Source: Arthrobacter sp. MYb227 (GTDB taxonomy: Bacteria; Actinomycetota; Actinomycetes; Actinomycetales; Micrococcaceae). Taken from it: 64,000 nucleotides of DNA. A model generated the notes under the pieces. That model worked only from the letters and a program-made list of their open reading frames with translations, searched no databases and was not told the origin of the DNA. Shown one piece after another: positions 10,026-43,981 of this stretch. Where the stretch lies: positions 62,001-126,000 of the forward strand of contig NZ_PCPT01000007.1 of the NCBI RefSeq assembly GCF_002975435.1, given 5' to 3'. Position 1 is the first letter of the stretch; each line of letters starts with the position of its first letter. Both the position numbers and the translations under genes were made by a program.

Positions 10026-10057
10026 TTTAGCAGTACACAAAGAAAGCTGGGGGCATC

Positions 10058-12267: not shown

Positions 12268-12269
12268 AA

Positions 12270-12971: not shown

Positions 12972-12993
12972 ACGCTCTTGGGGAGTGAAATAA

Positions 12994-18018: not shown

Positions 18019-18021
18019 CCG

Positions 18022-19155: not shown

Positions 19156-19181
19156 ATTCATTTTGAGAATTAGGGGAAATC

Positions 19182-24156: not shown

Positions 24157-24157
24157 A

Positions 24158-25599: not shown

Positions 25600-28377
25600 C
25601 TACGAACGGCTGCTGACATCCCGTTCCCATACGGGGATGGCTATCTTTGCAGAGAGACGTTTCTGCTTGAGCCTGGCGCTTGCAACGAAAAATGCGTAGA
25701 TAGCTGCATCGAAAGCGCTTCCGGGGCCGCGAACGGAACCCAGCAACTCGCGGGTAGTACGTCGAGATCCAATGTCACCACTTCCCAAAAACGCAGTAGG
25801 TACAGGTACCGATTGGGGTAACTTCTTGGCATTTTCCGTGAACTCGGTCTGACCACGGTAGTTGCGTTGCAAGATAGCCGAGAGACTCGCAACCGTGCGG
25901 GGCGTCACGACGCGTACCGGTGGAGTGTTGAGGACAACTTTCTCCCAGGTCTCGAATTGTTGGTCGACAAACAAGTCATCGGCGGTAAGCGTTGGGAATG
26001 CGCCAAATTTTGCGTGTCCTTCCTTGCTCAGCCCGTATACCCCGGCTCCCCACAGAGCTTGGCTAGTTGAAGGAATCCGACGACGAGCACGGTAAAAGGC
26101 TCGCACCAGTGCTGACGCGCGTGAATCGTCGTATTCGAAGGCTGGTCGGGCAGCCAAAGCACCGCTATGGGTCAACCGGTCGAGAACCATTTTCACTGCG
26201 GTAGGGCTCATCTCGATGTCCGCGTCCAGATAGACACGCGGCCATCGGGTTGCAACTTCGTCTGCAGCATTCAATGCGGCGACTTTCGAAGCCTCCTCTA
26301 CTTCAATGACCTTGACACCGGGGAATGAAGAAGCGATTGAGGCTGTTCGATCCGTGCATCCGTTACAGGCCACAATGACTTGAACGGAACCTGAAGCGGC
26401 AAGGACAGCTAAATGGTGCAAAGTTCTAGCTATCACGGACTCCTCATTGTGTGCAGGAATGATGATGGTCCCTGAGGGGAAATCTGCCAAAGCATCCTGA
26501 TTTTGTGGAACAACACTGGGCCGGGGCAGTTCTCCCCAGCTACTTTCGTCCAAGATCGTTTTGAAGATCCCACGACGGTTCGGTTTGAAAGCCCGAAGGC
26601 CCTCAGCCAAAAGAACAGCGGAACGGAATGCCGAAGCATAATTCTTGGTGTGGTACTTTCGTACGTATCGAATCCGGTTGACTGCCATCAAAGCGCTCAA
26701 AGCGGTCGACGCCCCTGACCCGCCCATGTGGTGTGTCATCCGAGCCGCAGGCTCGTACCAAATACTTTCACCGCCTTCCCTAGCACGGCGGAAATAGTCA
26801 ACTTCTTCGGAATACAGGAAGAACTGCTCGTCCCAGGCACCAAGTCGTTGTGCCAGGGAACCATTAATTAGCAACGCGGCTCCAGTCGCCCAATCAATCC
26901 GATGCGGATGCTGGTAACTTTCTGCATCGTAGTCAAGCTCGGAAGCCCAACTTGGGCGACCCGTGAACCTGGCGCCGCACAAGGCATCACCGATGGCCGT
27001 AAAAATGCTGGGTTCGCGGCGCAGCGAGATATATGTTGAACCGTCTGATTCTAAGAGTTGTGGGACAACGATACCTGCACCTGAACGTCGCATACGGTCT
27101 AACAAGAGCGATATGGCTTGGGGTTGCACCATCAAGTCCGGATTGAGCACTAGGACTGCTTCACAGCCTCTGGCTAAATGCATGACTGTGTTCAATCCTC
27201 CGGCATAGCCGAGGTTTCCTCCGGTGCGAACCGTTATGACATCTGGATGTTGGGCCAGTAGCTCTAGCGTTGAATCGCTGGAACCGTTGTCCGCGACCAC
27301 TACCCGCAACGATAATGCCTCGGTCTCAGCACGTAAGGTCGCAATGAGTTCCTCAATGGTGTCAGCATTGTTGAAAGTCACCGCCAAAACTGTTACATCT
27401 ACCTGTTGACCATGGGGGCTAAAACATCTGGCGAGAGGGCTTCGGTCCAATTCCGATAGTGTTTCTGAAGTCGATCCGTCTAACGCCGCTGCAACAAACT
27501 CGTTTTCGCTTGGTGGGTTCAATGAATTCGAAGTGATTAAACGACTTTCTCGACGTAGCCGCAGCAGGCTGGGCGGGTCATCGACAAGGTATCGCCGCGC
27601 CAGTCGACGTGGCTCAAGAGCCAGACGCCAAGCCCACTCCAAGCCATTTTCGCTGGCCCAGCTTGGCGCACGCTGGATGCTTCCTGCAAGGAAATCGACT
27701 ACCGCGCCGAATGCCAGCAAAACATTGGCGCCGGTGGTTGGCCCATACTTAGCCATCCAGAGTTCCTGGCGTGGTTTTCCCAAGCCCACCACGAGTATCT
27801 GAGTGCGTGCGGAACGAATTGAATCGGCGAGCCGAAGCGATGCCTCGTGGTCGATGAGCTCCTTGCGATCCGGTGCCCAATAACCGCTAACTTTCAGGCT
27901 GGGACGGGTTCTGGTGACCGAGCGAGAAAGCACTCGCTGCACAACGTACGAACCCCCGAGAAAACCAACGCTCAAACCCTCGGTCTCAGCTCGGTCCAAC
28001 AACGGCCCGATAATGTCACTTCCAGCAAGTCGGGGCCACGTTTTCCCAGTGAGTCGGGTTGCTTCGGCAACTAGAGGAGCGCCGTCTAATAGGACAAGCC
28101 AGTCATCGCTGTTGCTTCCGTGCTGAACTGCGCAACTGACATTGGGCATGCCAAGTGAATAGTCCAAGGTGTCATACCAACGTCCGAGACGACCGAACTG
28201 GGCAATATGATCAAGATTTGCCGACACAACAGAGAGCGGCCGGACCTCGGACCCATGTTCTTGCGTAGCGAGGGCTCGCTGAGTGACACGGTCCAAGGCA
28301 TCTTCCAACCCCAACAGATCCACTACGACACCCACAAGATCAACTTGTTGCATTGCGCCCCCCAAGGCAGTAAACAT
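25600..28377 (-). CDS. Three-domain glycosyltransferase fusion: WecG/TagA/CpsF + GT2 + GT2
   Basis: 925 residues. Residues 1-270 are a WecG/TagA/CpsF domain (VSANLDHIAQF near 52-61, GFLGGSYVVQ, LVVGLGKPRQELWMAKYG at 195-212). Residues 325-600 are a rhamnosyltransferase-like GT2 (VTVLAVTFNNADT, VVADNGSSDST, LNPDL at 411-415, WATGAALLI, FFLYSEEVDYFRR). Residues 635-925 are a second GT2 with GTIIIPAHNEESV, CNGCTDRT, VYLDADIEMS (DAD 718-720) and GAGVYGLSKEG. TagA-type domains add N-acetylmannosamine-like sugar to undecaprenyl-PP-GlcNAc; the two GT2 domains could extend it. The three steps would then be carried out by one cytoplasmic protein. ATG 28353 (residue 9) has GGGGGG just upstream and may be the true start. 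It runs against the + strand blocks. Confidence 0.9.
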   Translation of the reverse strand: MFTALGGAMQQVDLVGVVVDLLGLEDALDRVTQRALATQEHGSEVRPLSVVSANLDHIAQFGRLGRWYDTLDYSLGMPNVSCAVQHGSNSDDWLVLLDGAPLVAEATRLTGKTWPRLAGSDIIGPLLDRAETEGLSVGFLGGSYVVQRVLSRSVTRTRPSLKVSGYWAPDRKELIDHEASLRLADSIRSARTQILVVGLGKPRQELWMAKYGPTTGANVLLAFGAVVDFLAGSIQRAPSWASENGLEWAWRLALEPRRLARRYLVDDPPSLLRLRRESRLITSNSLNPPSENEFVAAALDGSTSETLSELDRSPLARCFSPHGQQVDVTVLAVTFNNADTIEELIATLRAETEALSLRVVVADNGSSDSTLELLAQHPDVITVRTGGNLGYAGGLNTVMHLARGCEAVLVLNPDLMVQPQAISLLLDRMRRSGAGIVVPQLLESDGSTYISLRREPSIFTAIGDALCGARFTGRPSWASELDYDAESYQHPHRIDWATGAALLINGSLAQRLGAWDEQFFLYSEEVDYFRRAREGGESIWYEPAARMTHHMGGSGASTALSALMAVNRIRYVRKYHTKNYASAFRSAVLLAEGLRAFKPNRRGIFKTILDESSWGELPRPSVVPQNQDALADFPSGTIIIPAHNEESVIARTLHHLAVLAASGSVQVIVACNGCTDRTASIASSFPGVKVIEVEEASKVAALNAADEVATRWPRVYLDADIEMSPTAVKMVLDRLTHSGALAARPAFEYDDSRASALVRAFYRARRRIPSTSQALWGAGVYGLSKEGHAKFGAFPTLTADDLFVDQQFETWEKVVLNTPPVRVVTPRTVASLSAILQRNYRGQTEFTENAKKLPQSVPVPTAFLGSGDIGSRRTTRELLGSVRGPGSAFDAAIYAFFVASARLKQKRLSAKIAIPVWERDVSSRS

Positions 28378-29722: not shown

Positions 29723-30382
29723 ATGGGGGAACAAGAACCAATGACACGACAGGGGCAGGATCGTAATTCCGCTAGGGTACGTGATTTACTAGCGTCGAAG
29801 GCTTTGCCCGAACCTAATTCCCCTGAACATGCGGGAACGATTGCAAACATTGGGTTCGGTGATTCGAAAACAAATGTGCGGTTCAAAACCGGGCCAGCGA
29901 TTTCCGGACCAATCGATGATGACACCACCGAGAGAAACTGGCCTAATTCATTGAAGGTGGGCTATGCGGCAGGTGCCTATGATCTCTTCCATATTGGGCA
30001 TCTTAATATTCTTCGCGCAGCCAAACAACGCTGTGACTTTCTTATTGCTGGTGTCGTCTCTGACGAAATGTGTGAGCTGAGCAAAGGCATCAAACCATTC
30101 ATCCCGGAAGACGAGCGCCTAGAGATTGTCCGGAGCATTAGTTATGTTGATGAAGCAGTCATTGAATCCTTACCAGACAAACTCGACACATGGAAAATGC
30201 TTAGATTTACCGTTTTCTTTAAAGGCGAAGACTGGCGGGAAACTCCCAGAGGTATTGACCTTGAGAACCGATTCCACGGTGTCGGAGTGGAAGTTGAGTA
30301 TTTTCCTTATACGTTGCGTACTTCGTCTACAAAGCTCAGGCTCGCGCTTGAAAATTTTGATCGACTTTCGCACCGACAGTAG
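29723..30382 (+). CDS. TagD-like cytidylyltransferase with long N-terminal extension
   Basis: 219 residues. The nucleotidyltransferase domain starts near residue 78 with VGYAAGAYDLFHIGHLNIL (HIGH at 90-93) and ends with YTLRTSSTKLRLAL, which resembles the RTEGISTT/ISSTKIR motif. Glycerol-3-phosphate cytidylyltransferases (TagD) and related enzymes make CDP-alcohols from CTP. The first 75 residues are hydrophilic with no recognised domain, and TagD proteins normally begin almost directly with this motif. Translation from ATG 29723 or 29741, or a much later start, is thus open; ATG 29741 has GGGGGA ten bases upstream. The product may feed the CDP-alcohol transferase at 37651 (inference). Confidence 0.8.
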   Translation: MGEQEPMTRQGQDRNSARVRDLLASKALPEPNSPEHAGTIANIGFGDSKTNVRFKTGPAISGPIDDDTTERNWPNSLKVGYAAGAYDLFHIGHLNILRAAKQRCDFLIAGVVSDEMCELSKGIKPFIPEDERLEIVRSISYVDEAVIESLPDKLDTWKMLRFTVFFKGEDWRETPRGIDLENRFHGVGVEVEYFPYTLRTSSTKLRLALENFDRLSHRQ

Positions 30383-30841: not shown

Positions 30842-32170
30842 GTGCAGGAATATAAGCAGTCAATGCTGTTATCAGAAATATGGCGACGAATCATATATCG
30901 CTGGAAGACTGTATGCATTGTTCTCATTATCTCGGTCTTATCCGCATTGGTAGTGGCGACAGTAAACGGAACCAACTACTCGGCTAAGACAGTCCTGACT
31001 GTCAACCCCCTGACTATTAACCCCTTCTCAACTGCTACGGCTAACCAACAGATCAACATCGCAACCGAACGAGCCATTCTAAGTTCCGGCGAAGTAGCAC
31101 GGATGGCCGCTAAAAGTTTGGGTGAGGACATTAGCGCAGCCTTGTTGAGTCAGAATGCCAGCATCGAGGCACCCCAAGGCTCACAGGTTTTGACGGTGAC
31201 CGTAGTCGATAGCAATGCGGAGAGGGCCGCCCAAAAAGCCAATGCCTTGGCAACTGCCTACTTGGCGTTTCGCTCCGAGGGTGCTTCCCAAGTTGCAAAC
31301 ACTTATATTAAGGCAATTGACAAGCGCATTGCAGAGCTCGATCAGGCCGCGAAAAACGGATCGGCTTCTTCCTTGGTTCTCTCGGATCTCATTAACCAGC
31401 GCAACGACCTTGCCCTCGTTGCCGAAAACCCGGGGAGAATCATCGGGTTTGCCGATGCCTCCGATTTGGGGTCATACCCAGGAATCACCATCTACTTAGC
31501 CGCCGGTCTCACAGGCGGACTCATTCTTGGGTTGCTCGCCGCGGTTTTCAAAGACCGGGTCAGCCGAAAGACAGAAAATGCCCAGCGTCTGGCAGAGCGC
31601 ACGGGTAAGAAGATCATCAGCATGACCGAACCCACCGATATGGAAGGGATACGTTGGGTAGTCAGGTCCCTTCAAATTGACTCAGGGGCCCAAACGAGAA
31701 GACACCGTAGGGCAATCGGCGTTCTGAGTCTTGGTCAAACTTCGGAAACACGGTTTCGGGCGCTATTAGCGCATGTTTTAGAAGCACGAAACATACGTTG
31801 CCATAGCCAATCCCTTGCCTCGGTGACACCTGGTGATATTGACCGAGGGTGGCCAGAAGGATTTGAACAAAACGTCTGGCCTGAGGCTGGGGCTGTACTC
31901 ATAGGAATTCCTCCCGGCATTGAAAATGCAAGGGTCGCAGTGCTGTGCGACAGGTTTATGGATGCCGCGGCAATCTTCGTCGATGCATCGACACCGCTTT
32001 TAACGGTGCAACGCCAACTCGAAACCTGCAGCGGGATTGACCCCGAATCGTTGTGCCTCGTCTTTGTAGAAAAGCACCGGAAACGTCGCGAAAGGGAACT
32101 TTGGCCGGTAATTCGTACAGAGCAGGCGGGAGAAAAAATGCATACAACTACAACAGTTGAGAGCACTTAA
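30842..32170 (+). CDS. Wzz-like co-polymerase with degenerate ATPase-like C-terminus, block B
   Basis: 442 residues from GTG 30842 (strong GAGGGGGGG nine bases upstream). One membrane helix is near 23-43 (VCIVLIISVLSALVV), a Wzz extracytoplasmic domain follows (YSAKTVLTVNPLTINPF; TVVDSNAERAAQKANALA), and a second helix lies at about 217-240. The cytoplasmic C-terminal 190 residues sit where BY-kinases have their ParA-like ATPase. However, the expected P-loop reads IGVLSLGQTSETRFRALL, with no GKS/T, and no tyrosine cluster follows. It looks like a catalytically dead relative of the CapB/EpsB-type kinase. It opens the block B operon and would control chain length. Confidence 0.8.
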   Translation: MQEYKQSMLLSEIWRRIIYRWKTVCIVLIISVLSALVVATVNGTNYSAKTVLTVNPLTINPFSTATANQQINIATERAILSSGEVARMAAKSLGEDISAALLSQNASIEAPQGSQVLTVTVVDSNAERAAQKANALATAYLAFRSEGASQVANTYIKAIDKRIAELDQAAKNGSASSLVLSDLINQRNDLALVAENPGRIIGFADASDLGSYPGITIYLAAGLTGGLILGLLAAVFKDRVSRKTENAQRLAERTGKKIISMTEPTDMEGIRWVVRSLQIDSGAQTRRHRRAIGVLSLGQTSETRFRALLAHVLEARNIRCHSQSLASVTPGDIDRGWPEGFEQNVWPEAGAVLIGIPPGIENARVAVLCDRFMDAAAIFVDASTPLLTVQRQLETCSGIDPESLCLVFVEKHRKRRERELWPVIRTEQAGEKMHTTTTVEST

Positions 32171-32200: not shown

Positions 32201-32650
32201 ATGAAAATCCTACTTGTTACATCGCCCGGTGGACACCTGGCCCAACTGCTTTCGCTGAGCTCATGGTGGGAACAATTCACCCATGAATGGGTGACGTTCC
32301 ATCAGCCCGAAGTGGTCTCGGCTCTGGATGGCGAACAAATTACATGGGCACATTTTCCAACAACGCGAAATGCCCGAAATGCGATCAAGAACTTTTGGCT
32401 GGCATGGCCAACATTGCGGAGAACTCGACCCGATGTGGTGATCTCGAACGGTGCCGGAGTCAGCGTCCCATTCTTTATCGTATGCAAGTTCTTGAAAATC
32501 AGAACCGTCTATGTTGAGTGTTTTGACCGGATCACCTTGCCAACGCTGAGCGGAAGAATTTGTTATCCGATAAGTGACCTGTTTTGCGTGCAGTGGGAAG
32601 AACAAATCCAGTTCTATCCGGATGCCATCAACATTGGACACTTACTATGA
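32201..32650 (+). CDS. PssD/Alg14-like glycosyltransferase subunit
   Basis: 149 residues. The N-terminal MKILLVTSPGGHLAQLLSL is the Alg14/PssD signature, followed by VISNGAGVSVPFFI and YVECFDRI, which form the membrane-associated docking half. Alg14-type proteins recruit the catalytic Alg13/PssE half to the membrane so that it can transfer a sugar from a UDP-sugar to the lipid-linked acceptor. The ATG at 32201 follows GGAAAGGA-like sequence. Its stop overlaps the ATG of the partner gene (ATGA), which supports a complex made in fixed ratio. Confidence 0.88.
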   Translation: MKILLVTSPGGHLAQLLSLSSWWEQFTHEWVTFHQPEVVSALDGEQITWAHFPTTRNARNAIKNFWLAWPTLRRTRPDVVISNGAGVSVPFFIVCKFLKIRTVYVECFDRITLPTLSGRICYPISDLFCVQWEEQIQFYPDAINIGHLL

Positions 32651-33354
32651 AGAACCTGGAAGAAGTGCTCGACGGTATCCAACCTGAAATCGTAGTATCC
32701 GTTGGTACAGATTTTCATCTATTCAATCGGCTCATTGACTGGGTGGACAATTGGTTGGTTCAGCAAGAGAAACGCCCTACTTGCCTGGTGCAATATGGGG
32801 CTAGCCGCGAACCTACCCATGCTCTGGGAGTATCTCGAATGTCGCGTGATGAATTGCTTGGACTGTACGCAGGCGCGAAGGTTGTAATCGTGCAAGGTGG
32901 CCCAGGATCGATTCTTGATGCACGCGAAGTCGGAATGCTACCGATTGCTGTTCCACGCCGGCCAGAGAACCAAGAAGTTGTTGACGGGCACCAGATTGCC
33001 TTTACAAGAACCATGGAACTGCATGGAGAAGCCATTGCGGCTAATACCGAGCAGGAGCTTCGAACGTGCCTAGAATCAGCACTTCGAACTCCAGAACAGT
33101 TCCACAAAAGTCCACGTATCGGTAATCCCGAGGAGGCTGCCCATTTTTTGGGCGAGGAAATTGAGAAGATGCTCGGAGAACCGCGGCATCCGGAGGCGCT
33201 CCGACGAGCCTGGCGATTGATGATTGCGAGGAGAAACACCCAGCGAAACAAACCAGAAAATATTCCGCAGCATCAAGAACCACCACCGGTCAAAAAGCCG
33301 GTCTTGAAACTAGGAGCACAACGAAGCATCATCCAGAATCGAGCAGAACAATGA
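32647..33354 (+). CDS. PssE/Alg13-like glycosyltransferase subunit
   Basis: 235 residues from ATG 32647, which overlaps the upstream stop (ATGA); the frame reaches back to 32584. The glycosyltransferase-28 C-terminal domain shows VSVGTDFHLFNRL at the start and VIVQGGPGSILDAREVGMLPIAVPRRPENQE near the middle, the usual UDP-binding and HGGPG-like loop. With the preceding PssD-like protein it should form the catalytic pair that adds a sugar (in rhizobia, glucuronate) to the lipid carrier. The C-terminal 50 residues are basic and low-complexity. The donor is unknown. Confidence 0.88.
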   Translation: MKNLEEVLDGIQPEIVVSVGTDFHLFNRLIDWVDNWLVQQEKRPTCLVQYGASREPTHALGVSRMSRDELLGLYAGAKVVIVQGGPGSILDAREVGMLPIAVPRRPENQEVVDGHQIAFTRTMELHGEAIAANTEQELRTCLESALRTPEQFHKSPRIGNPEEAAHFLGEEIEKMLGEPRHPEALRRAWRLMIARRNTQRNKPENIPQHQEPPPVKKPVLKLGAQRSIIQNRAEQ

Positions 33355-34121
33355 AAATGAAATGGTGGATTGTGGTTCCACCTCTGGCAATTGCCGCGAT
33401 GCTTGTCACGGGAACTACCGGCTGTGTGTCGGAACCTCCCCAGTCATTGCCCCATGCACAAATAGGAACACCAACAAATTCAGCTCAGTCATCCGCGCCG
33501 GCTGATCCGTCACCTAAACCAGCTGCGGACCCATCTCCAAACGGATCATTGGTCATAAAGCCTTCAACACCAACATCGAGCAGCAAAGATTCACAGGCGA
33601 AAAAGACGAAGACCGCTGAGGTCTCACAGACCGCTCAAAAACCACCCAAAACGTGGCCGAAAGAATCTCGCAAAAGTGATAGTCGGGAAAAAGCAAGCAC
33701 TAAAGGGTTCGTTGAAAAAACCGAAAAGATGACATCACCAAATTTCGGTAAGATCATCAAATCTCCCGAAAACACGATCCCGAAACCACCGGACTACAGT
33801 GACGTCGCCAAAGGTGTGGCAATGGGCGAACTCGAGGCTCAATTTGCAGAGTATGCAAACAACAATTGGAAGCAATCAGGCGAAGTTCTAGTCGTCGGTG
33901 AACCAAAGGTTGAAGACTTAGTCATAGACGGAGTCACAACCCACAGAGTATATCTTTGCTTGGATTCCAGCAGTCTTGAGGTGACGGAATCCGACGGATT
34001 TGTTGTGACGCCGAAATCGGCGCCAGGAACGCGTACCGCGCTGAATATCTATGACCTTCAGGAACAAAGCGGGCAACTCGTTGTTGCCAATCACCTATTT
34101 CCTGAAGACCCGAACTGTTGA
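33351..34121 (+). CDS. Secreted lipoprotein of unknown function, block B
   Basis: 256 residues. A signal peptide of about 24 residues ends in lipobox TTGC (cleavage before Cys25), predicting a lipid-anchored surface protein. Residues 30-120 are rich in Pro, Ser, Thr and Lys and look like an unstructured cell-wall-spanning linker. The last 110 residues form a compact-looking domain (EAQFAEYANNNWKQSG to the end) that I do not recognise. ATG 33351 overlaps the previous stop (ATGA). It sits between the PssE subunit and the large fibrinogen-domain protein, so a surface role in handling the polymer or its partner is plausible. Function unknown. Confidence 0.75.
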   Translation: MKMKWWIVVPPLAIAAMLVTGTTGCVSEPPQSLPHAQIGTPTNSAQSSAPADPSPKPAADPSPNGSLVIKPSTPTSSSKDSQAKKTKTAEVSQTAQKPPKTWPKESRKSDSREKASTKGFVEKTEKMTSPNFGKIIKSPENTIPKPPDYSDVAKGVAMGELEAQFAEYANNNWKQSGEVLVVGEPKVEDLVIDGVTTHRVYLCLDSSSLEVTESDGFVVTPKSAPGTRTALNIYDLQEQSGQLVVANHLFPEDPNC

Positions 34122-34142: not shown

Positions 34143-37100
34143 ATGAAATTATCATCAACCACGATTCGTTCAGGTGTAACTAGCAAAATCCTTTGCGCAA
34201 TCATTGCAACAGCCTTCATCGCAACGGGTATGAGCTTCACGATGCAACCGGCATATGCGGAGGGGACCGCAGTATTCGACGGACTGAGCGAACAGAACGC
34301 TGCTGCCTCATGCTGGGAAGCCAAAAAAGTCAGGCCAACCGCCGACTCCGGAATTTATTGGTTGCAGACTCCCGTTATGTCCGCCCCTGCACAGTTCTAC
34401 TGTGATCAAGTTACTGACGGCGGTGGGTGGGTCCTGATCGGTAGGGGCCGTCAAGGGTGGAAAGAAATGTATGAAGGACTTGGAACCACGGCCCAAGTTC
34501 GTTCTGCAGTCACCGGAACTGCGGCGTTTACACCCAAACAACTTTCCTCTAGTGTCATCGACCAATTGCTTAATGGTCAGTCTGCTCAATCGCTAAGCGA
34601 TGGAATTCGACTTCGCCGGGCATTGAACACCGCAGGGAGCCAATGGCAGGAAGTCCGTTTCCAGACGAACAAGCGCGAACGGTGGACCTGGACATTTTCC
34701 TCGGAAACTCCGGTGAAAAACTACAAGTTTGACAGCGTGACAGGTGCCGGCGGAGCCACCTCGAACTTTGGCTCGGGACAAGGGGCTAACAGGATCGACA
34801 CACGAGAATCGCAGGCCCAAGGATGGACTCAGGGGTGGGCATTTGGTTCAAGCATCACAGGTACGAACTCCAGTACCAACTATTTGTGGTCAGCGACCTC
34901 GGGCGTTGGCAATGCCAGACCATTTACTCAAATGTATTTGCGTCCCAAGCTGCTACAAGCAAATCTTCAGTTCGGGTCGATTCCAGATACTGGAACCCCA
35001 AAATATGAGCAGCGTTCGGTACAAGAGACCGGAGCCATGCCAACCGTTTGGGGAGTTAATGGGCTTGTCTCGGGCAGTGGCGAATTACGCACCGAAGCCC
35101 AAACTTTTGCACAAGTTGGAAACACGGTATTTGTCGGTGGAAACTTCAAGTATGTGCAAAAAACTTCCAGTGGTGGCAGTCGCGTCGGACAATCCTATGT
35201 CGCCGGCTTTGACGTTGTTACCGGCGAATTTAAGCCGGGGTTTGCTCCCACCTTTAATGGGCAGGTCAAAGAGCTCATCGCACTTCCCAACGGCCTACTA
35301 ATCGCAGGTGGCGAGTTTACCGTTGTGAACGGCAAACCCGCGGTTGGGATTGTCGCATTGAATCCTACGACCGGTGCTACATCTTCTAGCTGGAAAGTGA
35401 ACATGGAGAACCGGATTTCCGGTGGTGCGGTCTCCGTAAGGGCCTTCGGCATCTATGGCAATTGGCTATACGTCGGTGGTGCCTTCACGCATTTGACCGG
35501 TGGCACGAACACCAGCCCCGTATATGCTCGATCCGCAGCCAGAGTATCAATCGCCGATGGCACCGTTGACCGCAACTGGAATCCGGCCTTCAACGGAACC
35601 GTGCTTGATGTTGCGCCGTCAAAAGACGGCAACCGGTTATATGCATCGGGCTACTTCACCGCTTCAAACAGCACACCAACGGATGCTGCCGCTGCAATTC
35701 GCACCAGCGTCAATGCCCCGGTAGATACCTGGAGCTGGACTCCGAGCGCCTCGGCCCACTTCCAGTTTGGTGTGGCAGATGAAGGCGGCAGAGTATGGCT
35801 GGGTGGTTCCGAACATAGCTTATTTAGTTTTAGCCCTTCCTCGTTCCAACGGCTGTCGAGCAATATCACCCGAGCCGGTGGAGACTTCCAAGACGTCACA
35901 GGCCAAAACGGTCTGATTTATGCCGGATGCCATTGCGGAAATTGGAATTACACGGATGGAACGATCTGGCCCGGACCTGGCCCCAACTGGACTATCGCCG
36001 ACAAGATCAACCTCGTTGGGATCTGGGATGCAAGCACAGGAGCCTATTTGCCGCAATTCAACCCGGTAATTAAGGGCCGCGGTGGATACGGAATATGGGG
36101 CAACTTCGTTGACAGCCGCGGTGTGCTGTGGAGCGGAGGAGACCTCGTCTCCTCGGTGCGTACGAACGGTTCGGGCCAATGGTCTGGAGGGTTTGCCAGA
36201 TTCGCGCTCAACGATTCGACCGCACCGGGTATACCCGGAACCGTCAAGGCTGAAAGCAACGGAACTATAGATACCCTCACCTGGACGGCTTCAAGCGGTT
36301 CGCCCTCTGCCTACCAGATACTGCGTGATGATCGGGTGGTCGCCACGACCACCGCCCGTAGCATTGCCGTTGACCACCAAGATGCGGCTCGGTACTTCGT
36401 TCGTGCAGTTGATGCAGCGGGAAACCGGTCGGCTTCATCGAAGGTTGTTCGTGCAACAATGGGCACGGTACCCGCTGGAACGTTCCAGTACATTGGGAGC
36501 GCAGAAAACTGGAAGTATCGATTTGTAAACAGTGCACCACCGGCGAGCTGGACTACCGCTACCTTTGATGATTCTTCGTGGGGTTCGGGCAAGGCACCTC
36601 TGGGGTGGGGGACCTCGAGTATTCAAACAACCCTCAATGTCCCGGGCACCAAACCGTTGTCTTACCAGTTGCGCAAGAGCTTCAGCGTGACCGATGCAAG
36701 CAACATTGCCAGCCTAGAATTCTCGACACGGGCCGATGATGGGATTGTTGCATACCTTAACGGAGTTGAAGTTCTGCGATCCAATATGGGTACGGGAAAT
36801 ATCGCTTACAACTCATATGCGACAACTGCACCCAGCACCGCAACTGCCCAGTCCAATCCCGTGAAAGCTACGGTTCCCGGATGGGTGGTGCACGACGGAA
36901 ACAATGTTCTCAGTGTGGAAGTCCATTCCAACTATCGAAGTACGCCCAACTCCTCATTCGATTTTGAGCTCAAAGCGACGCTTGGGGATCAGCCCACACC
37001 ACCGGTGACACCCCCGAAGACCGAGCCAGCAATGGCTGTTGATACCGGTTCCACATGGAAATACAAATTCGAAAATGCGGCACCCGGTACAACATGGATG

Positions 37101-37589
37101 GCTACCAACACCAATGATTCGGGATGGGACCAAGGCAAGGCACCCCTGGGATGGGGCAGCACATCAATTGCTACAGAACTTGCTAGTGCGGGGACTAAAC
37201 CGCTGACAAGTTATTACCGCAAGAGCTTCACGGTTGCTGATCCAACCGCGGTACAGGAAATGAAAATTACGACGAGAGCCGATGATGGGATAGCCATCTA
37301 CGTCAATGGCACGGAGGTCGGCAGAAAAAACCTGCCAACCTCCATCTTGAGCTACCTGACGTACGCAACCGCGGCACCCTCAACCGGATCGGCACAGAAT
37401 GCTCCCTTACAGATCACGGTGCCCGGGAGCGCACTGCATTCCGGCACCAACGTCATTGGTGCCGAGGTGCATTCAAATTGGCGTACATCGCCCAACGTGA
37501 GCTTTGAACTGCAAGCCGAGTTGGTGAGCGGGGGGCATGGCGCAAAACATGATGAAGGAAGGACTACAAAAGCAGGGCTTGCTGGATGA
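34143..37589 (+). CDS. Large secreted protein: fibrinogen-related domain, beta-propeller-like repeats, FN3-like and tandem C-terminal beta domains
   Basis: 1148 residues with a signal peptide cleaved after AYA (residue 39). Residues 53-300 begin SCWEAKKVRPTADSGIYWL and include FYCDQVTDGGGWVLIGRGR, with Cys57 and Cys84, matching the start of a fibrinogen-related domain (FReD). Residues 330-690 contain repeated GNTVFVGGNF/GLLIAGGEF/NWLYVGGAF/NRLYASGYF strands like a beta-propeller of the delta-60-repeat kind. A short FN3-like stretch (about 695-765) follows. Two near-identical units of about 170 residues end the protein (777-949 and 960-1132; both hold APLGWG, TRADDGI and EVHSN). No LPXTG anchor. 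It is co-transcribed with transport and polymerisation genes. A lectin-like or adhesive surface role is inferred. Confidence 0.82.
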   Translation: MKLSSTTIRSGVTSKILCAIIATAFIATGMSFTMQPAYAEGTAVFDGLSEQNAAASCWEAKKVRPTADSGIYWLQTPVMSAPAQFYCDQVTDGGGWVLIGRGRQGWKEMYEGLGTTAQVRSAVTGTAAFTPKQLSSSVIDQLLNGQSAQSLSDGIRLRRALNTAGSQWQEVRFQTNKRERWTWTFSSETPVKNYKFDSVTGAGGATSNFGSGQGANRIDTRESQAQGWTQGWAFGSSITGTNSSTNYLWSATSGVGNARPFTQMYLRPKLLQANLQFGSIPDTGTPKYEQRSVQETGAMPTVWGVNGLVSGSGELRTEAQTFAQVGNTVFVGGNFKYVQKTSSGGSRVGQSYVAGFDVVTGEFKPGFAPTFNGQVKELIALPNGLLIAGGEFTVVNGKPAVGIVALNPTTGATSSSWKVNMENRISGGAVSVRAFGIYGNWLYVGGAFTHLTGGTNTSPVYARSAARVSIADGTVDRNWNPAFNGTVLDVAPSKDGNRLYASGYFTASNSTPTDAAAAIRTSVNAPVDTWSWTPSASAHFQFGVADEGGRVWLGGSEHSLFSFSPSSFQRLSSNITRAGGDFQDVTGQNGLIYAGCHCGNWNYTDGTIWPGPGPNWTIADKINLVGIWDASTGAYLPQFNPVIKGRGGYGIWGNFVDSRGVLWSGGDLVSSVRTNGSGQWSGGFARFALNDSTAPGIPGTVKAESNGTIDTLTWTASSGSPSAYQILRDDRVVATTTARSIAVDHQDAARYFVRAVDAAGNRSASSKVVRATMGTVPAGTFQYIGSAENWKYRFVNSAPPASWTTATFDDSSWGSGKAPLGWGTSSIQTTLNVPGTKPLSYQLRKSFSVTDASNIASLEFSTRADDGIVAYLNGVEVLRSNMGTGNIAYNSYATTAPSTATAQSNPVKATVPGWVVHDGNNVLSVEVHSNYRSTPNSSFDFELKATLGDQPTPPVTPPKTEPAMAVDTGSTWKYKFENAAPGTTWMATNTNDSGWDQGKAPLGWGSTSIATELASAGTKPLTSYYRKSFTVADPTAVQEMKITTRADDGIAIYVNGTEVGRKNLPTSILSYLTYATAAPSTGSAQNAPLQITVPGSALHSGTNVIGAEVHSNWRTSPNVSFELQAELVSGGHGAKHDEGRTTKAGLAG

Positions 37590-37650: not shown

Positions 37651-38427
37651 GTGGGAACGCAGGAAATGTCGATTTCTAAGGGAGGGCAGTCGAAGTTTGT
37701 GCAGGTCTTGCATGAGCTTGAGCATGCGCAAAAACCGGGAGTCGGCGTTCCTGCCTACACACGATGGATCAACCGGCGTGCGGCAAGGGCTTTTGCTGCC
37801 GGTGCCGTGGCCAGCGGGCTTGGACCCAATACCGTTTCACTACTGAGCGCGTGCTCGAGCCTTGTGGGGTTGGTTCTGTTGGTTCTTCTTCCCGCGAGCT
37901 GGGGAACAGGCATTGCCACCGCATGTTTTCTGGCACTTGGATACATTATGGACTCCGCCGATGGCCAGGTCGCCAGGGTAACCGGCACGGGCAGTCCTGC
38001 AGGTGAATGGCTTGACCACGTGATAGATGCAGTTCGGACCCCGGCACTTCATCTTGCCGTGTTTACGGGATTTCAGCGTTGGTTCGAACTCGATACGGCA
38101 CTGTATTTCCTGCCGTTGGCTTTCGCCTTGCTTGCCATCGGGCATTTCATGAGCCAGATACTAGCCGAACAGCTGACCCGCCAACACACTCTGCGCGCCG
38201 GATCACCCGATGTCAAAGTGCATCCCCAGGATCAGACGCTCAAAAGCAACCTTTGGTCGGTGCTGATCCTTCCGATAGATACCGGCGTAATGTGCTGGGT
38301 TTTTGTATTTTGGGGGAGCCCCGTGGCCTTTATTGCATGCTACGTATTCCTCTTTGTCTTTGGCCTTGTTTTTGCCGGTATCTCGGCACATCGTAAATAC
38401 CGCCAGCTTGGAGCCCTGGCGAAATGA
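37651..38427 (+). CDS. CDP-alcohol phosphatidyltransferase family membrane enzyme
   Basis: 258 residues from GTG 37651 (GGGGG about seven bases upstream). The full family motif D-x2-DG-x2-AR-x8-G-x3-D-x3-D is present within DSADGQVARVTGTG and the residues following it, near residue 105-130. Five to six hydrophobic segments place it in the membrane. These enzymes join a CDP-activated group to an alcohol, as in phospholipid synthesis. Its place inside a polysaccharide operon, rather than beside lipid genes, points to a phospho-alcohol decoration or linkage of the polymer. The TagD-like gene at 29723 could supply the CDP-alcohol. The substrate is not readable. Confidence 0.88.
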   Translation: MGTQEMSISKGGQSKFVQVLHELEHAQKPGVGVPAYTRWINRRAARAFAAGAVASGLGPNTVSLLSACSSLVGLVLLVLLPASWGTGIATACFLALGYIMDSADGQVARVTGTGSPAGEWLDHVIDAVRTPALHLAVFTGFQRWFELDTALYFLPLAFALLAIGHFMSQILAEQLTRQHTLRAGSPDVKVHPQDQTLKSNLWSVLILPIDTGVMCWVFVFWGSPVAFIACYVFLFVFGLVFAGISAHRKYRQLGALAK

Positions 38428-39383
38428 ACTATCAGGAAAACGGTGCGTGGCTGCGCCTCGAAGAACCCCACTCGTTGAGCAGCGTCAGCGCGATCATCAC
38501 CACCTGCGGACGTCCCGAGCTGCTGCGCAAAGCCATTAGATCGATCCTCAACCAAAACTATGAGGCAGAAATTGAGGTTGTTGTTGTATTCGACAAGATT
38601 TCGGTGGATGAACTAAAAGACGTGGAAGTACCCCCGGGGCGTCGACTCACCACCATGGCCAATTCACGCTCCTCGGGATTGGCCGGCGGACGAAACACCG
38701 GGATCCGTGCTGCCAGCGGACAGATCATCGGCTTTTGTGATGACGACGATGATTGGCATCCAGAAAAGCTCGCGCAACAAATGAACACATGGAAAGACGC
38801 GCCCCATGCGGTGGCCGTCGCCAGCGGTATCAATATCCGCACCGACGGGACGAACATCATTCGTATGCCACCTCAACGAGTTACCTTCGAGAACTTCCTG
38901 CGCTCACGGGTCACGGCTATCCATCCCTCAACGATGTTGTTTCGCAGGGAGGACTTGATAGGACGAATCGGCCCGGTCGATGAGGAACTTCCAGCAGGTT
39001 ACGGAGAAGACTACGACTTGCTCTTACGGGCGACGCGTTTCGGAGACATTTACTCGACTCAAGAACCTCTCGTTGGTGTCTTGTGGGACAGACCGTCATT
39101 TTTTGCCGGCCGCTGGGAGAACATATCTGCGGGACTGACCTACATTCTTCGCAAGTTTCCAGAATTTGAGCGTAGCCCCAAGGGAATTTCCAGAATTGCC
39201 GGCCAGGTGGCTTTCGCGCACGCCGCCCAGGGAAACGGCCGCGCCGCACGACTGTGGGCCAGAAGCTCAATGCACCGGGACTGGAGGCAATTGCGAGCTT
39301 ACGCAGCCCTAGTTGTATCAACAGGATTTGTTGATGCAGCCTGGCTGGTGCGGCAAATGCAAAAAGTGGGGCGGGGACTTTGA
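38424..39383 (+). CDS. GT2-family glycosyltransferase, block B
   Basis: 319 residues, GT-A fold. VSAIITTCGRPELLRKAI opens the domain. LAGGRNTGIRAASGQIIGF precedes the metal site CDDDDDWHPEKL near residue 110, and EELPAGYGEDYDLLLRATR is the acceptor-side motif. ATG 38424 overlaps the previous stop (ATGA). It is the only complete GT2 enzyme in block B apart from the PssD/E pair, so the block B repeat unit probably needs few sugars or shares transferases with other loci. The donor is unknown. Confidence 0.88.
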   Translation: MNYQENGAWLRLEEPHSLSSVSAIITTCGRPELLRKAIRSILNQNYEAEIEVVVVFDKISVDELKDVEVPPGRRLTTMANSRSSGLAGGRNTGIRAASGQIIGFCDDDDDWHPEKLAQQMNTWKDAPHAVAVASGINIRTDGTNIIRMPPQRVTFENFLRSRVTAIHPSTMLFRREDLIGRIGPVDEELPAGYGEDYDLLLRATRFGDIYSTQEPLVGVLWDRPSFFAGRWENISAGLTYILRKFPEFERSPKGISRIAGQVAFAHAAQGNGRAARLWARSSMHRDWRQLRAYAALVVSTGFVDAAWLVRQMQKVGRGL

Positions 39384-40690
39384 CGCTCAGCGGGCAACGT
39401 TTTGCCGTGCCGTTTGAGAGCCGACACGGGACATTTGTCTCAGATTCCCTGAACCTGGAGGCGGCTCCCGCAAGCGTCCTTCCACGGTGGCCAATCTTTG
39501 TCCTTATCGTAGGGTTTCCACTGTGGTGGGCCCTAGGAGTCATACCTCTGGTTCCGCTGGTCATGGTCACCATCATGGTTTTCTATTTGATGAATTCCAC
39601 TGGGGTCAGGATGCTTCCCGGCATGGCACCGTGGTTCTTTTTCCTAATCTGGGTGCTTGCCGCAGCCATCAATGTCCACGGTGCCGCAGACCTTGCAGGT
39701 TTTGGCATGCGCGCCATGGAATTGCTGCTGGTCGGTGTGAGCATGCTTTACATAGCAAACGCTGGGATTTCCTTGCCCAAGAAGCGCATTGTTAATTACC
39801 TCGTACTCGTTTGGATCGCCATTGTGGGTCTGGGATTTCTCGCGTTGGTGATGCCCGAAGTGCGTTTGAAAACACCGTTGGGAGCTTTTCTTCCCGAGTC
39901 AATTACGTCAAATGAATTGGTCAGAAATCTAGTTTTTCCACCGTTGGCAGAAGTTCAACAACCTTGGGGCGCCCCCGAACCGTTCATTCGTCCCGCCGCG
40001 CCGTTCCCATATGCAAATAGCTGGGGAGCCGCGTTCGCGGTCTTGGTTCCCGTGGTCATTTCACGCATGGTTACACTGCGCAACCGAAAGCTGGCAGTCT
40101 CGCTCGGAGTGTTGCTGGCTTTGTCGTTTATCCCTGCCGTGGCAACCAGTAATCGAGGAATGTTTGTTGGCTTGGCCATTGCCATTGGGTATGCCCTGAT
40201 GCGCCATCTGGGGCACGGACATTGGCAGCTTGCCGCAATAATTGGTGCAGGCGCGGTGGTTCTTGGAGTAATGCTGGTTTCCAGCGGAGCAATCAGTGGA
40301 ATTCTGGGCCGGCAGGATTACAGTGACTCCACCGGTGGGCGATTGGCACTGTATGAAAAGACCTGGGAACAAAGCCTGCAAGCACCGGTCTTGGGTCATG
40401 GTAGTCCACGCATTGACCCCACCATCGGAGTTTCGCTCGGGTCCCAGGGTTACTTATGGACCTTGATGTTTTGCTATGGGTTTGTTGGTCTTTCGTTGTT
40501 CCTCTATTTTATTGTCAACGGAATCTTGCGTACCTGGCGTTTGGCGAACACTGCAGATATTTGGTTGCATGCTTCGCTCATCGCGGGGCTTTCACTGACA
40601 CCGTTCTATGGGCTCTCAGCCATGCAACTAACTTCTCTGGCCGTCGTCCTTGCAATGTTGTTGCGGCAAAGATATCTGGATCACAAATGA
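39380..40690 (+). CDS. Wzy-like polysaccharide polymerase, block B
   Basis: 436 residues with 10-11 hydrophobic segments and an O-antigen ligase/polymerase-like region around residues 285-350 (GRLALYEKTWEQSLQAPVLGHGSPRID, including the GHGS turn seen in such proteins). It would polymerise the block B repeat unit outside the membrane. The start is TTG 39380, overlapping the GT2 stop (TTGA) with GGGGCGGGG upstream; no in-frame ATG lies near. Its stop overlaps the Wzx ATG. It shares only general features with the block A polymerase at 21905, so the two sets probably handle different repeat units. Confidence 0.82.
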   Translation: MTLSGQRFAVPFESRHGTFVSDSLNLEAAPASVLPRWPIFVLIVGFPLWWALGVIPLVPLVMVTIMVFYLMNSTGVRMLPGMAPWFFFLIWVLAAAINVHGAADLAGFGMRAMELLLVGVSMLYIANAGISLPKKRIVNYLVLVWIAIVGLGFLALVMPEVRLKTPLGAFLPESITSNELVRNLVFPPLAEVQQPWGAPEPFIRPAAPFPYANSWGAAFAVLVPVVISRMVTLRNRKLAVSLGVLLALSFIPAVATSNRGMFVGLAIAIGYALMRHLGHGHWQLAAIIGAGAVVLGVMLVSSGAISGILGRQDYSDSTGGRLALYEKTWEQSLQAPVLGHGSPRIDPTIGVSLGSQGYLWTLMFCYGFVGLSLFLYFIVNGILRTWRLANTADIWLHASLIAGLSLTPFYGLSAMQLTSLAVVLAMLLRQRYLDHK

Positions 40691-42261
40691 GTGACCCGAT
40701 GTTGGCGGCAAAACGTGCCAAGGGAGAGCCCAGCACGGCAAGAACCACGGTGCTGACTTTTTCCAGTGTGCTAGGTGGTGCAGTTCTGGCCTTTGCTACA
40801 GCGCTCTACTTGGGCAACCAAGTTGGTGAAGCTGGCGCTGGCATCTTCTTCCAGATCATGGCGTTTTTCTCCATAGTAGTGGTGGCATCCACCTTCGGAG
40901 CCGATACCGGGCTGGTGCGGAACCTCGCGGCACAACGGGTCCTTGGCACTAGAAAAAACTTGCAGCGCACCATCGTCATAGCCGGTCTACCGGTACTGCT
41001 TCTCTCTATGCTTCTGGGGCTCGTATTGTGGGTGAACGCTGAGTCCCTGGAACAGTCAGCACACGTTCCCGGGTTGGCGGCCGCCATTAGGCTGGCAGCG
41101 CCATTGCTAGTTCCTGCGGCAATCATGAACGTGGCGTTTGGCGCCATGCGCGGCCTGGGCCAGGTGGCAAGTTTTAGTGCGATCCAGAACCTCTTGTTGC
41201 CCACGCTCCGGTTTGGTGCAGTTGCGCTGGCAATTTTGCTGGGTGGAACTTTGCTGCAGCTCACTGCGGCATGGACTCTTCCCGTCCTGTTGGGAGTATC
41301 TCTAGCGTGCGTAGCCACTTGGCTGTCAATTCGGGGGTTCCATCCCGTCGGCGCAAACGTCCTCGTTGGAACGGGTACGCCCAATGATCCGCAGGTATCG
41401 TTTTGGTCCTTCTGGGGGTTCTCCTCGGCTCGCGGGATGAGTGCACTAGTGGAGACCACACTGGAATGGGTCGATGTTATCGCTGTTGCTGTTTTCATGG
41501 GACCTGCTGCGGCAGGAATCTATGGTGCGGTCAATAGGTGCGTGAGAATGGGGGTAATGCTTGAACACACAGCACGGTTGGTGACAGGTCCAATGCTTAG
41601 TGCTTGCCTAGCTATTGGAAACCATTCGGAGGCTCGGCGTCTTTTCAATGACACAGCCAAGCTGCTGGTTGGCTGTGCCTGGCCTTTTTACCTCACGCTT
41701 GGAATTTTTGGGCAGACGGTACTTTCACTCTTTGGCTCGGGTTTCAGTGCTGGAGCGGTGCCCTTGGCGATCATAAGCATTGTTATGATGCTTGCGGTTT
41801 CGGCCGGGGGAGTACAGAGCATGCTGCTGATGGGAGGCAAAAGCCGCTGGCAGTTGGGCAACAAAGCTTGTGCATTATCCGCAGCCTTGATACTTAATTT
41901 ATTGTTGGTTCCACTCTGGGGATTGCTGGGCGCCGTTACTGCGTGGTCTGTTGCAATACTCGTGGATTGTTCCTTGGCGACACTGCAGGTGGCACGGGTC
42001 ATGGGTTTTGGTGCCCCGGTGCGCGAGTTGCTTCCACTGGCGGGGATCTGTCTGATTGTTTTTGGGGCCGGGGGGCTGGCCTGGCGGATTGTTCTCGGTC
42101 CGACCTTGCTTGCAGCCGGTCTACAACTGGCCATCGGAATGCCGATCTACTTGATGCTCTGCATTCGCTTTGGCAAGCGGTTGGGGCTTGAAGAACTCTT
42201 GGCGCAGCTGCTGCAGACTTTTCGCAAAGCTAGGCCAAAAACGGAAAACCCGGTTCGGTAA
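40687..42261 (+). CDS. Wzx-type polysaccharide flippase (MOP superfamily), block B
   Basis: 524 residues from ATG 40687, which overlaps the polymerase stop (ATGA); the frame runs further upstream to 40456 inside that gene. It has 12-14 hydrophobic helices, with VLTFSSVLGGAVLAFATALYLG at the N-terminus and a FWGFSSARGMSALVETTLEWVDVIAVAVFMGP region typical of MOP flippases. It would translocate the block B lipid-linked repeat. It is the last gene of the block, followed by a strong bidirectional terminator. Confidence 0.87.
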   Translation: MSDPMLAAKRAKGEPSTARTTVLTFSSVLGGAVLAFATALYLGNQVGEAGAGIFFQIMAFFSIVVVASTFGADTGLVRNLAAQRVLGTRKNLQRTIVIAGLPVLLLSMLLGLVLWVNAESLEQSAHVPGLAAAIRLAAPLLVPAAIMNVAFGAMRGLGQVASFSAIQNLLLPTLRFGAVALAILLGGTLLQLTAAWTLPVLLGVSLACVATWLSIRGFHPVGANVLVGTGTPNDPQVSFWSFWGFSSARGMSALVETTLEWVDVIAVAVFMGPAAAGIYGAVNRCVRMGVMLEHTARLVTGPMLSACLAIGNHSEARRLFNDTAKLLVGCAWPFYLTLGIFGQTVLSLFGSGFSAGAVPLAIISIVMMLAVSAGGVQSMLLMGGKSRWQLGNKACALSAALILNLLLVPLWGLLGAVTAWSVAILVDCSLATLQVARVMGFGAPVRELLPLAGICLIVFGAGGLAWRIVLGPTLLAAGLQLAIGMPIYLMLCIRFGKRLGLEELLAQLLQTFRKARPKTENPVR

Positions 42262-42304: not shown

Positions 42305-43981
42305 TTAACCCTTGTAGGCCCAGACACGAACGTAGTCGATCTTGTAATCCGCGGTGTTCTTAGTTGTGGAGTCCGGCATGCCCCAGTAGGGGGATCCGTA
42401 CTGCATGTTCAGCCGAATATGGAACTTGGCAGCGGTTTCGAAAGCCTTTTCGTAGGCCGCATTGCCTTCACGCTTTACCGTCTTGTATGGCTTGCCATCA
42501 AACAACCACGTCATCCCGCTAGGAGTCCATTCGAATGCCCACGTATGGTATCCGCCGGAGAGGTCGGTTACAGGGATCCATGAATTGGTCTTACTCTTGC
42601 CAGTCTGGTCGTAGTGGAGGGTTCCTTCGCTACGGTTGAACGGGTTAAAGTTGGTGTTTGCGGTGTGCGGAGTGCCATAGGCCTCCATGATGTCGATTTC
42701 TCCGCCAGTTTTGGCTCCATCTGGGCGGAGCCAAAATGCCGGCCAGACCCCCTTGGCATTATCTTTGGTTAGCGGCAATTGCGCACGCATTTCCCAACGG
42801 CCATATTTTTGCGAGAATTTTCCGATGCTGTCGACATATCCGGTGGAGAATTCACGCAACCCGCCCTTATTGACCGGCGTTGCCATGCGCTTACCTTGAA
42901 TGCTCAGGACGCCATCCTTGGTGACTGCATTTTCCTTTTTGATGATCGCACGGTCATAGGAGAGGACTCCATGCGTTGCATCGTCGCGAACTGTCCACTT
43001 TGAAAGTGAGCCACTGAACTCGTCTTGCCAAACGGGAGTCCCCCAACCAGCTAGGTACCCATCCGAGGCCGATGGCGGCGGAGTAGGTGCCGTTGTTGGA
43101 GGTGGGGTAGGTGCAGTCGTCGGCGGTGGGTTAGGGGTAGTAGTCGTTGGTGGCTTCGTCGATGTGCTTGAGGCAGCCAGAGGCGCGATGACCAAGTCGT
43201 CGTATGAAAGCGCCGAGACTGGGCTATTACTGCCACGGAACGCACTAACTTGTACGGTGCCAACGCCGGTTAGTGCATCACTAGTCGAATCCGTGGCCGA
43301 AGTAGTCCAAGCCGTTGGCTCGGTAGTGCCAACTGGCCATGCCTTCGCCCGTACACTTACGGCGGGCTTTCCGGCGACTTCAAGCTTCATGTTTACCTGC
43401 TTGTTCGCAGCGACATTGAATCCCAATTTTACCGGGTTCGTCAGCGATTTCATGCCTTTGCTGGTCCAGCGGTTAAGCTCTAGGTAGCTAACTCCCTGAG
43501 GAGAAATTCGTAGCGTGGCGCGGTAATCACCGGCAGTTGATTTGCGTGCGTGAAGTGAAGAGTAGATTCCAGCACCGCTGGTGGCAAGCTTATTCGTGGA
43601 GACCTTGTACGTTGCCACTAAATCTTGCAGTTTATAGCTGGCATTGACGCCACTAGTTTTGCCTGAGGCTGGCAACGCGATGAGTGCTCGGGAACCGTTG
43701 ACGGAAAACTCTGAACCGTTGCTGATATACGAGACGGCAGAAGATGCCTTGCCCCAGCCAGATGCCTGAGTGCGGCTCATAGAATCAGATACAACAGCTT
43801 TGCCGACCGTGTACTTTGTGGCAGCTTCCGCAATGGCTGGCTTGCCAATTACTGGCGCAATGACAGCTACTGCTGTGGCTAGAGCCGCAGTAGCTGCGAC
43901 GGCCTGAACCATGCGTTTTTTGTAAGTTTTGGGTTGCAAAGCTGAGGGTTGGTTAGCGTTTTTCGTCAAAGAAAGTCTCAA
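42305..43981 (-). CDS. Secreted GH16-family glycoside hydrolase (beta-glucanase type)
   Basis: 558 residues. A signal peptide with KKR then a hydrophobic run is cleaved near AIAEA (about residue 53). Residues 57-270 form a beta-rich domain that looks carbohydrate-binding or laminin-G-like. A Pro/Thr linker (about 275-305) follows, then the catalytic GH16 domain with GGEIDIMEAYG: Glu428 nucleophile, Asp430, Glu433 acid/base. GH16 enzymes cut beta-1,3/1,4-glucans, galactans and related polymers. It lies at the end of a polysaccharide locus and may release or trim the polymer (inference). The start is TTG 43981: no upstream ATG is usable, and the later ATG 43912 would remove the basic n-region of the signal peptide. 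Confidence 0.9.
   Translation of the reverse strand: MRLSLTKNANQPSALQPKTYKKRMVQAVAATAALATAVAVIAPVIGKPAIAEAATKYTVGKAVVSDSMSRTQASGWGKASSAVSYISNGSEFSVNGSRALIALPASGKTSGVNASYKLQDLVATYKVSTNKLATSGAGIYSSLHARKSTAGDYRATLRISPQGVSYLELNRWTSKGMKSLTNPVKLGFNVAANKQVNMKLEVAGKPAVSVRAKAWPVGTTEPTAWTTSATDSTSDALTGVGTVQVSAFRGSNSPVSALSYDDLVIAPLAASSTSTKPPTTTTPNPPPTTAPTPPPTTAPTPPPSASDGYLAGWGTPVWQDEFSGSLSKWTVRDDATHGVLSYDRAIIKKENAVTKDGVLSIQGKRMATPVNKGGLREFSTGYVDSIGKFSQKYGRWEMRAQLPLTKDNAKGVWPAFWLRPDGAKTGGEIDIMEAYGTPHTANTNFNPFNRSEGTLHYDQTGKSKTNSWIPVTDLSGGYHTWAFEWTPSGMTWLFDGKPYKTVKREGNAAYEKAFETAAKFHIRLNMQYGSPYWGMPDSTTKNTADYKIDYVRVWAYKG

Follow-up and report, generated by a model that had tools for sequence, protein, structure and literature searches.

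The 64,000-nucleotide window of Arthrobacter sp. MYb227 analysed here (contig NZ_PCPT01000007.1, positions 62,001 to 126,000, from a host genome of 4.3 Mb in 27 contigs) encodes at positions 34143–37589 an apparently secreted protein of 1148 residues in which a fibrinogen-related domain (FReD) is followed by a β-propeller, by an Fn3 domain and by two tail modules of sugar-binding type. Comparison of gene neighbourhoods and protein sequences indicates that this protein is a real and recurrent secreted-type component of loci for probably anionic Wzx/Wzy polysaccharides in actinobacteria. The favoured interpretation, to which we assign a probability of roughly 0.55, is that the FReD-propeller protein serves as a dedicated extracellular accessory of such loci. 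Among the observations in its favour, the gene recurs beside Wzx/Wzy genes across families of the class, and the lineages of the protein follow the presence of either a phosphotransferase or a sulfotransferase in the locus.

FReD-propeller genes recur within Wzx/Wzy polysaccharide loci

In a survey of 295 genomes of the window's family, 79 match the protein at E ≤0.001, and 46 of these display a FReD-type match at E ≤1e-130. At class level the GGGW domain is found in 21 of 394 genomes at E ≤0.001 (20 over the cut-off). Two of these (G000 and G002) were already in the set and G640, a contig-end fragment, was left out; among the 18 regions retained, 16 encode a FReD plus propeller near locus genes and two (G609 and G646) are without this architecture. 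The loci examined thus number 79 (the window, L031–L092 and L122–L137), and 67 of them hold 76 FReD-propeller genes. A large majority, 61 of the 67, also carry Wzx/Wzy-locus genes, namely Wzx in 57, Wzy in 56, a GT2 glycosyltransferase in 55, Wzz in 52, the small putative lipoprotein LP256 in 50, a CDP-alcohol phosphotransferase (CDPol) in 48, PssD and PssE in 37 each and a cytidylyltransferase in 32, counts that are based on all raw open reading frames (ORFs) of at least 60 residues and are lower bounds because the regions, except the window, L031 and L032, span no more than about 20 kb. The immediate surroundings of the gene are also conserved: in 42 of the 61 loci LP256 is the adjacent upstream gene of the same strand, and in 38 CDPol is the adjacent downstream one. 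The six FReD-propeller loci without locus genes comprise a 3.3-kb contig (L073) and five second copies (L063, L066, L069, L071 and L076). Three FReD-propeller genes lie close together in each of L052, L058 and L064.

An earlier reading of the window made from its letters (the sequence-only reading) had proposed a role in handling the exported polymer and had named, as an outcome damaging to that proposal, homologues always lying outside polysaccharide loci. The 61 of 67 loci refute this outcome, and the 16 of 18 class-level regions extend locus membership to other families of the class.

The protein tree follows two locus types

CDPol is encoded in 89 genomes of the family (E 1e-30), among them 39 of the 46 with a FReD-type match; in 38 of these it lies within 10 kb of the FReD gene and in one (G087) on another contig. 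All seven FReD-type genomes without CDPol encode a sulfotransferase, the query protein belonging to Pfam PF00685. It is located near the FReD gene in five and on another contig, near a tail-module match, in G052 and G239. The same query, positive in 7 of 8 genomes in the search that included these seven, matches none of the 39 FReD-type CDPol genomes, an empty result that shows little by itself, and CDPol and the sulfotransferase occur together in none of the examined loci. The 16 class-level loci divide into ten with CDPol, five with the sulfotransferase and one (L122) with neither.

A quick tree was built from 72 FReD-propeller domains, with L047 and L050 labelled as sulfate type and six rows left without label. 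The locus-type label requires 2 changes on this tree against a mean of 11.2 after shuffling, and none of 500 shuffles is as low. The seven sulfate-type proteins of the window's family join L132 and L136, which belong to other families, on a starred branch. On this quick tree, the protein follows the two locus types. Locus and protein may simply travel together, in which case the protein is still part of the locus.

The propeller is the shared core of the family

Of the twelve regions that lack a FReD-type gene, L091 matches by tail module only, leaving 11 propeller-only regions. CDPol is encoded in 10 of the 11 and a gene of a glycerophosphodiesterase cluster, one member of which is confirmed by PF03009, in 6. 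Glycerophosphodiesterase-like proteins of this kind (PF03009; L081, positions 3294–4898 of the minus strand, and kin) are a hint of a glycerol-phosphate polymer. A single-sequence search finds no relative in 28 of the 89 CDPol genomes; in the 12 of these 28 that were sampled, a hidden Markov model (HMM) recovers a propeller protein in all 12 CDPol loci (E ≤2.9e-20). CDPol loci devoid of any propeller, considered as a separate class, are thus explained in the sampled cases by a shortfall of the single-sequence search. Since FReD-less propeller proteins occupy related loci, the propeller, as judged by sequence, is the shared core of the family and the FReD is not. Of 29 propeller-only proteins, 21 have the motif CHGD...H.H.C at the putatively corresponding position.

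The window protein contains seven hydrophobic-GG motifs, whose first residues are 329, 385, 442, 499, 551, 591 and 662. DUF5122 scores 12 bits, under its Pfam gathering score of 27, and matches four of five scanned relatives with 14.9 to 24.4 bits, also under this score. The GG motifs and the weak DUF5122 matches mark a propeller that is probably seven-bladed. An AlphaFold2 model of FReD plus propeller, obtained from three close sequences, has a mean pLDDT (predicted local distance difference test score) of 37.1, and Foldseek matches this low-confidence model to a wide variety of propellers (best E 2.2e-6). The propeller-like repeats that the sequence-only reading had placed behind the FReD are therefore supported by the seven motifs and by the generic propeller matches of the model. 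His-558, Asp-581, Gln-583 and His-597 are invariant in 73 of 73 FReD-type proteins and His-450 is present in 72, and this near-invariant His/Asp/Gln set suggests a metal or active site in the propeller.

The FReD core resembles intelectins

The FReD is recognised by NF040941 (fibrinogen-like YCDxxxxGGGW), which covers residues 56–99 and, at 64.9 bits (E 4.9e-18), lies well over its cut-off of 30; all seven scanned relatives pass it too, with 62.6 to 80.0 bits. Pfam PF00147 remains under its gathering score of 22, both in the window protein (16.1 bits) and in five of five scanned relatives (15.1 to 21.2 bits). Cys-57 and Cys-87 are invariant among 73 proteins, which share the YCDxxxxGGGW signature, and the C-terminal border of the domain near residue 270 is set from alignment only. 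When a 56-member family profile is compared with solved structures in the PDB, intelectin-type proteins come first (XEEL, E 3.5e-8; lamprey serum lectin, E 4e-7; human intelectin-1, E 1e-5), followed by angiopoietins, tenascins and fibrinogen. Thus, the FReD relationship put forward by the sequence-only reading is upheld by NF040941 and by profile matches led by intelectins.

An AlphaFold2 model of the FReD based on eight sequences, including phage relatives, displays a mean pLDDT of 45.5; its first 60 residues reach block means of 60–81 and match FReDs, and most of the remainder is below 50. The top Foldseek match of this model is human intelectin-1 (46 columns, 1.4 Å, E 2.6e-3), with nothing at E 0.001 or better, and the search lends weak support to the FReD core only. 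Galactofuranose, considered as an intelectin-type ligand, was set aside for this genome because the genome has no match to the UDP-galactopyranose mutase family PF03275, a search that is positive in 4 of 14 genomes.

GGGW/FReD-domain proteins are also found on viral contigs (L093:4962–5804, L094:4908–5738 and many loci of L140–L219). The viral L094 protein passes NF040941, and for L093, L094, L144, L146 and L147 the alignment to the bacterial FReD extends as far as its C-terminal end. The phage FReD proteins share the core and are uninformative on the locus.

Secretion signal, C-terminal modules and organisation of the window locus

The hydropathy maximum of the 1148-residue protein is located at residue 16 and is followed by an AYA-EG junction; the protein appears to carry a signal peptide and hence is apparently secreted. 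The 56-member profile also matches the Fn3 domain of chitinase A1 (1k85) at residues 708–786 (E 8.3e-7), and this domain, positioned between propeller and tail modules, is absent from the sequence-only reading. The tail modules match the GH78 rhamnosidase 3w5m in a profile search (E 6.4e-10) and vary in number from 0 to 3 per protein among the 76 proteins. The two C-terminal modules announced in the earlier reading are real, and their description as near-identical is overstated because they are only 47% identical. No catalytic family of Pfam or NCBIfam is matched by the window protein. The nearest named relatives of the gene belong to Paeniglutamicibacter psychrophenolicus and Glutamicibacter protophormiae (75% identity).

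The features of the protein and its locus are compiled in Table 1. All ORFs from PssE to Wzx are co-directional, the gaps around the ORF of the FReD-propeller protein measure 21 bases before and 61 bases after it, and overlaps of 4 bases connect PssE with LP256, CDPol with GT2 and GT2 with Wzy. Neither the 21- nor the 61-base gap contains a plus-strand terminator-like site, in a region that overall exceeded shuffled sequence in such sites. At the level of gene arrangement, the gene therefore lies inside a predicted polysaccharide operon, as had been claimed. The flippase and the polymerase score over their family cut-offs and the Wzz-like protein just under, completing the Wzx/Wzy set; LP256 has no Pfam family match.

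The cytidylyltransferase profile matches an ethanolamine-phosphate cytidylyltransferase (3elb, E 2.4e-30) and a glycerol-3-phosphate cytidylyltransferase (1coz, E 7.1e-17), while CDPol matches AF2299 (4o6m, E 1.1e-11). Residues Asp-104, Gly-105, Ala-108, Arg-109, Gly-118, Asp-122 and Asp-126 of CDPol are invariant in 25 of 25 sequences and form the pattern DG-2-AR-8-G-3-D-3-D (D104–D126), which we take to be the catalytic motif of CDP-alcohol phosphotransferases. From the cytidylyltransferase matches and a CDPol match with kept motif, it is plausible that the locus produces a small phospho-alcohol and transfers it, with ethanolamine and glycerol types among the candidates.

A GH16 homologue also occurs near the operon in L031–L034; as in the window, its gene converges on the operon in L031 and L032, but in L033 and L034 it is found on the opposite side. 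A second Wzx, Wzy and Wzz-like set with an initiating sugar transferase precedes the locus (window positions 7372–25546, plus strand), and positions 25600–28377 of the minus strand encode a 925-residue fusion of a WecG/TagA/CpsF transferase and two GT2 stretches.

Table 1. Positions of the FReD-propeller gene, its predicted domains and the surrounding genes in the window.
Feature	Coordinates	Strand	Basis
Alcohol-phosphate cytidylyltransferase	29723..30382	+	PF01467; true start probably internal, near residue 78
Wzz-like chain-length protein	30842..32170	+	PF02706, 24.2 bits, just below cut-off 25.5
PssD/Alg14-like glycosyltransferase subunit	32201..32650	+	PF08660
PssE/Alg13-like glycosyltransferase subunit, start uncertain	32584..33354	+	PF04101
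LP256, small putative lipoprotein directly upstream	33351..34121	+	Lipobox-like GTTGC from sequence reading
FReD-propeller-Fn3-tail-module protein, apparently secreted (P0001, 1148 residues)	34143..37589	+	ORF and homologues
Signal peptide, residues 1–40	34143..34262	+	Hydrophobic stretch, AYA-EG junction, hydropathy; sequence reading
Fibrinogen-related domain, about residues 50–270	34290..34952	+	NF040941, PDB profile, conservation over 73 proteins
β-Propeller, seven GG motifs, residues 301–690	35043..36212	+	GG motifs, weak DUF5122, conservation, Foldseek of low-confidence model
Fn3 domain, residues 691–776	36213..36470	+	Profile match to chitinase A1 Fn3 (1k85)
Tail module 1, β-sandwich/jelly-roll type by relative	36492..37007	+	Profile match to GH78 rhamnosidase 3w5m
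Tail module 2 (47% identity with module 1)	37020..37541	+	Module comparison
CDP-alcohol phosphotransferase (CDPol)	37651..38427	+	PF01066
GT2 glycosyltransferase	38424..39383	+	PF00535
Wzy-like polymerase	39380..40690	+	PF04932, 34.5 bits against 31.7
Wzx-like flippase	40687..42261	+	PF01943, 32.4 bits against 28.2; ORF 40456–42261, ATG at 40687 likely
GH16 glycanase, convergent with operon	42305..43981	-	PF00722

Proposed role and alternative explanations

As a dedicated accessory of these loci, the FReD-propeller protein would be exported and would meet a polymer whose charge derives either from a phospho-alcohol, through the cytidylyltransferase and CDPol as in the window, or from sulfate. 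The FReD and the tail modules would hold the protein on the finished polymer or the cell wall, the FReD being an optional binding head on the propeller core. The propeller itself would use a polar site, probably one that binds metal, to act extracellularly on the polymer; trimming, modification or cross-organisation of the chains would be its most likely effect. A more far-reaching version of this proposal is doubtful: the secreted FReD-propeller family would constitute an extracellular processing and organising factor with a new metal-dependent propeller site that operates on phospho-alcohol-substituted or sulfated glycans, with a metazoan-style self-lectin and with lineages matched to the charge chemistry.

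Several observations weigh against the proposed role. The gene is patchy, since a FReD-type match is present in only 4 of 15 genomes of the window's genus, and the five second copies lie beside genes read as sufBCD. The co-occurrence counts ignore kinship, and near-copies cluster the labels on the tree. CDPol does not require the FReD, because it is encoded in 50 of the 249 family genomes without a FReD-type match (50 of the 89 CDPol genomes), and no single chemistry explains all members, because the sulfotransferase loci are without CDPol. The CHGD...H.H.C motif is missing in 8 of the 29 propeller-only proteins. Both models are poor (pLDDT 37.1 and 45.5) and display no ligand site, and the propeller site is for this reason not visible in three dimensions. 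Finally, no Asp, Glu or His is conserved at ≥60% across FReD residues 200–270 in the alignment of 73 proteins, although aromatic, Gly, Gln, Arg, Pro and similar residues are conserved there; with none of these conserved in the stretch, the FReD may lack calcium-dependent binding of the intelectin type.

Much of the same evidence could also describe a structural or adhesive matrix protein, a possible though less probable identity, in which the modules do no more than bind polymer and link chains or cells to one another, with a propeller devoid of catalysis. The recognisable modules are of binding or scaffold types, the number of tail modules is variable and no catalytic family is matched, all of which suits a matrix protein, but the near-invariant propeller His/Asp/Gln residues look like more than scaffold, and an Asp and a His are apparently kept in many FReD-less relatives too. 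Intelectin binds phosphoglycerol, and the FReD might recognise a terminal acyclic 1,2-diol, phosphoglycerol for example, on the cell's own polymer. This intelectin-like self-lectin would be consistent with intelectins as the best solved relatives by profile and as the top Foldseek match, with a locus able to make a CDP-activated small alcohol and with a genome whose lack of a UDP-galactopyranose mutase match leaves a phospho-alcohol as one candidate ligand; in the available text of two reports, intelectin-1 binds exocyclic 1,2-diols through calcium (PMC8185196, PMC12800186). It is nevertheless unlikely, given that only about 46 residues align, without a Foldseek match at E ≤0.001, that residues 200–270 are without a conserved acidic or His residue, that the alcohol may be ethanolamine, which is no diol, and that the FReD is present in sulfotransferase loci too. 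It is more improbable still that the protein is unrelated to the polymer and owes its place in the locus to linkage, serving instead as a surface adhesin, as a phage receptor or in nutrient binding. The tandem copies in some loci and the second copies that five regions carry away from locus genes speak for this reading, but several families of the class share the placement, and the protein co-varies with polymer-modifying enzymes.

Comparison with known systems

Wzx/Wzy loci are best known for cytoplasmic and membrane steps and, to our knowledge, little is known on what handles the polymer outside the actinobacterial cell. A locus-bound secreted protein with a lineage following polymer-modifying enzymes would provide a direct handle on this extracellular step. 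The finding is suggestive of phospho-alcohol and sulfated polysaccharides among actinobacteria and, if true, would mean that bacteria direct a lectin-type FReD at their own glycans.

The 46-residue YCDxxxxGGGW signature is common to the window protein and to NF040941 (GGGWT_bact), which is a domain-only model whose entry, as displayed, says nothing on architecture, locus or role. Intelectins (4wmo, 4wmq, 6usc and 7e1e) share the Cys and GGGW core and provide the best PDB profile matches over residues 58–103, and the profile similarity to the window FReD stops near residue 103. Unlike intelectins, the bacterial FReD is fused to a propeller and tail modules and is encoded in a biosynthetic locus. 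DUF5122/delta-60 propeller proteins share the blade motif through a weak profile match; in contrast to them, FReD-type proteins possess their own near-invariant His/Asp/Gln set. GlxA-type propeller oxidases are secreted and encoded beside cslA in Streptomyces, and by analogy they are likewise secreted propeller enzymes encoded with a polysaccharide producer.

A comparable published locus is the wps-1 cluster of Actinoplanes missouriensis, which in the available text of its report comprises Wzx/Wzy/Wzz, GT2, a heparan-sulfate-type sulfotransferase and a kinase-like protein, all genes but wpsD being reported as needed for normal sporangia (PMC13390465). These are the same kinds of parts as in the sulfotransferase variant described here, a likeness drawn by description and not by sequence; wps-1 has a predicted GH26 enzyme, WpsE, and the main text of the report, as available, is without the words fibrinogen or propeller (PMC13390465). 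None of the literature matches listed describes a fibrinogen-like or propeller protein for a locus of this kind; these are in several cases a small part of all matches, cover few subscription journals and are weak evidence of absence. The domain types of the FReD-propeller protein are known; what is new is their architecture, the fidelity to the locus and the pairing with phosphate- or sulfate-adding enzymes.

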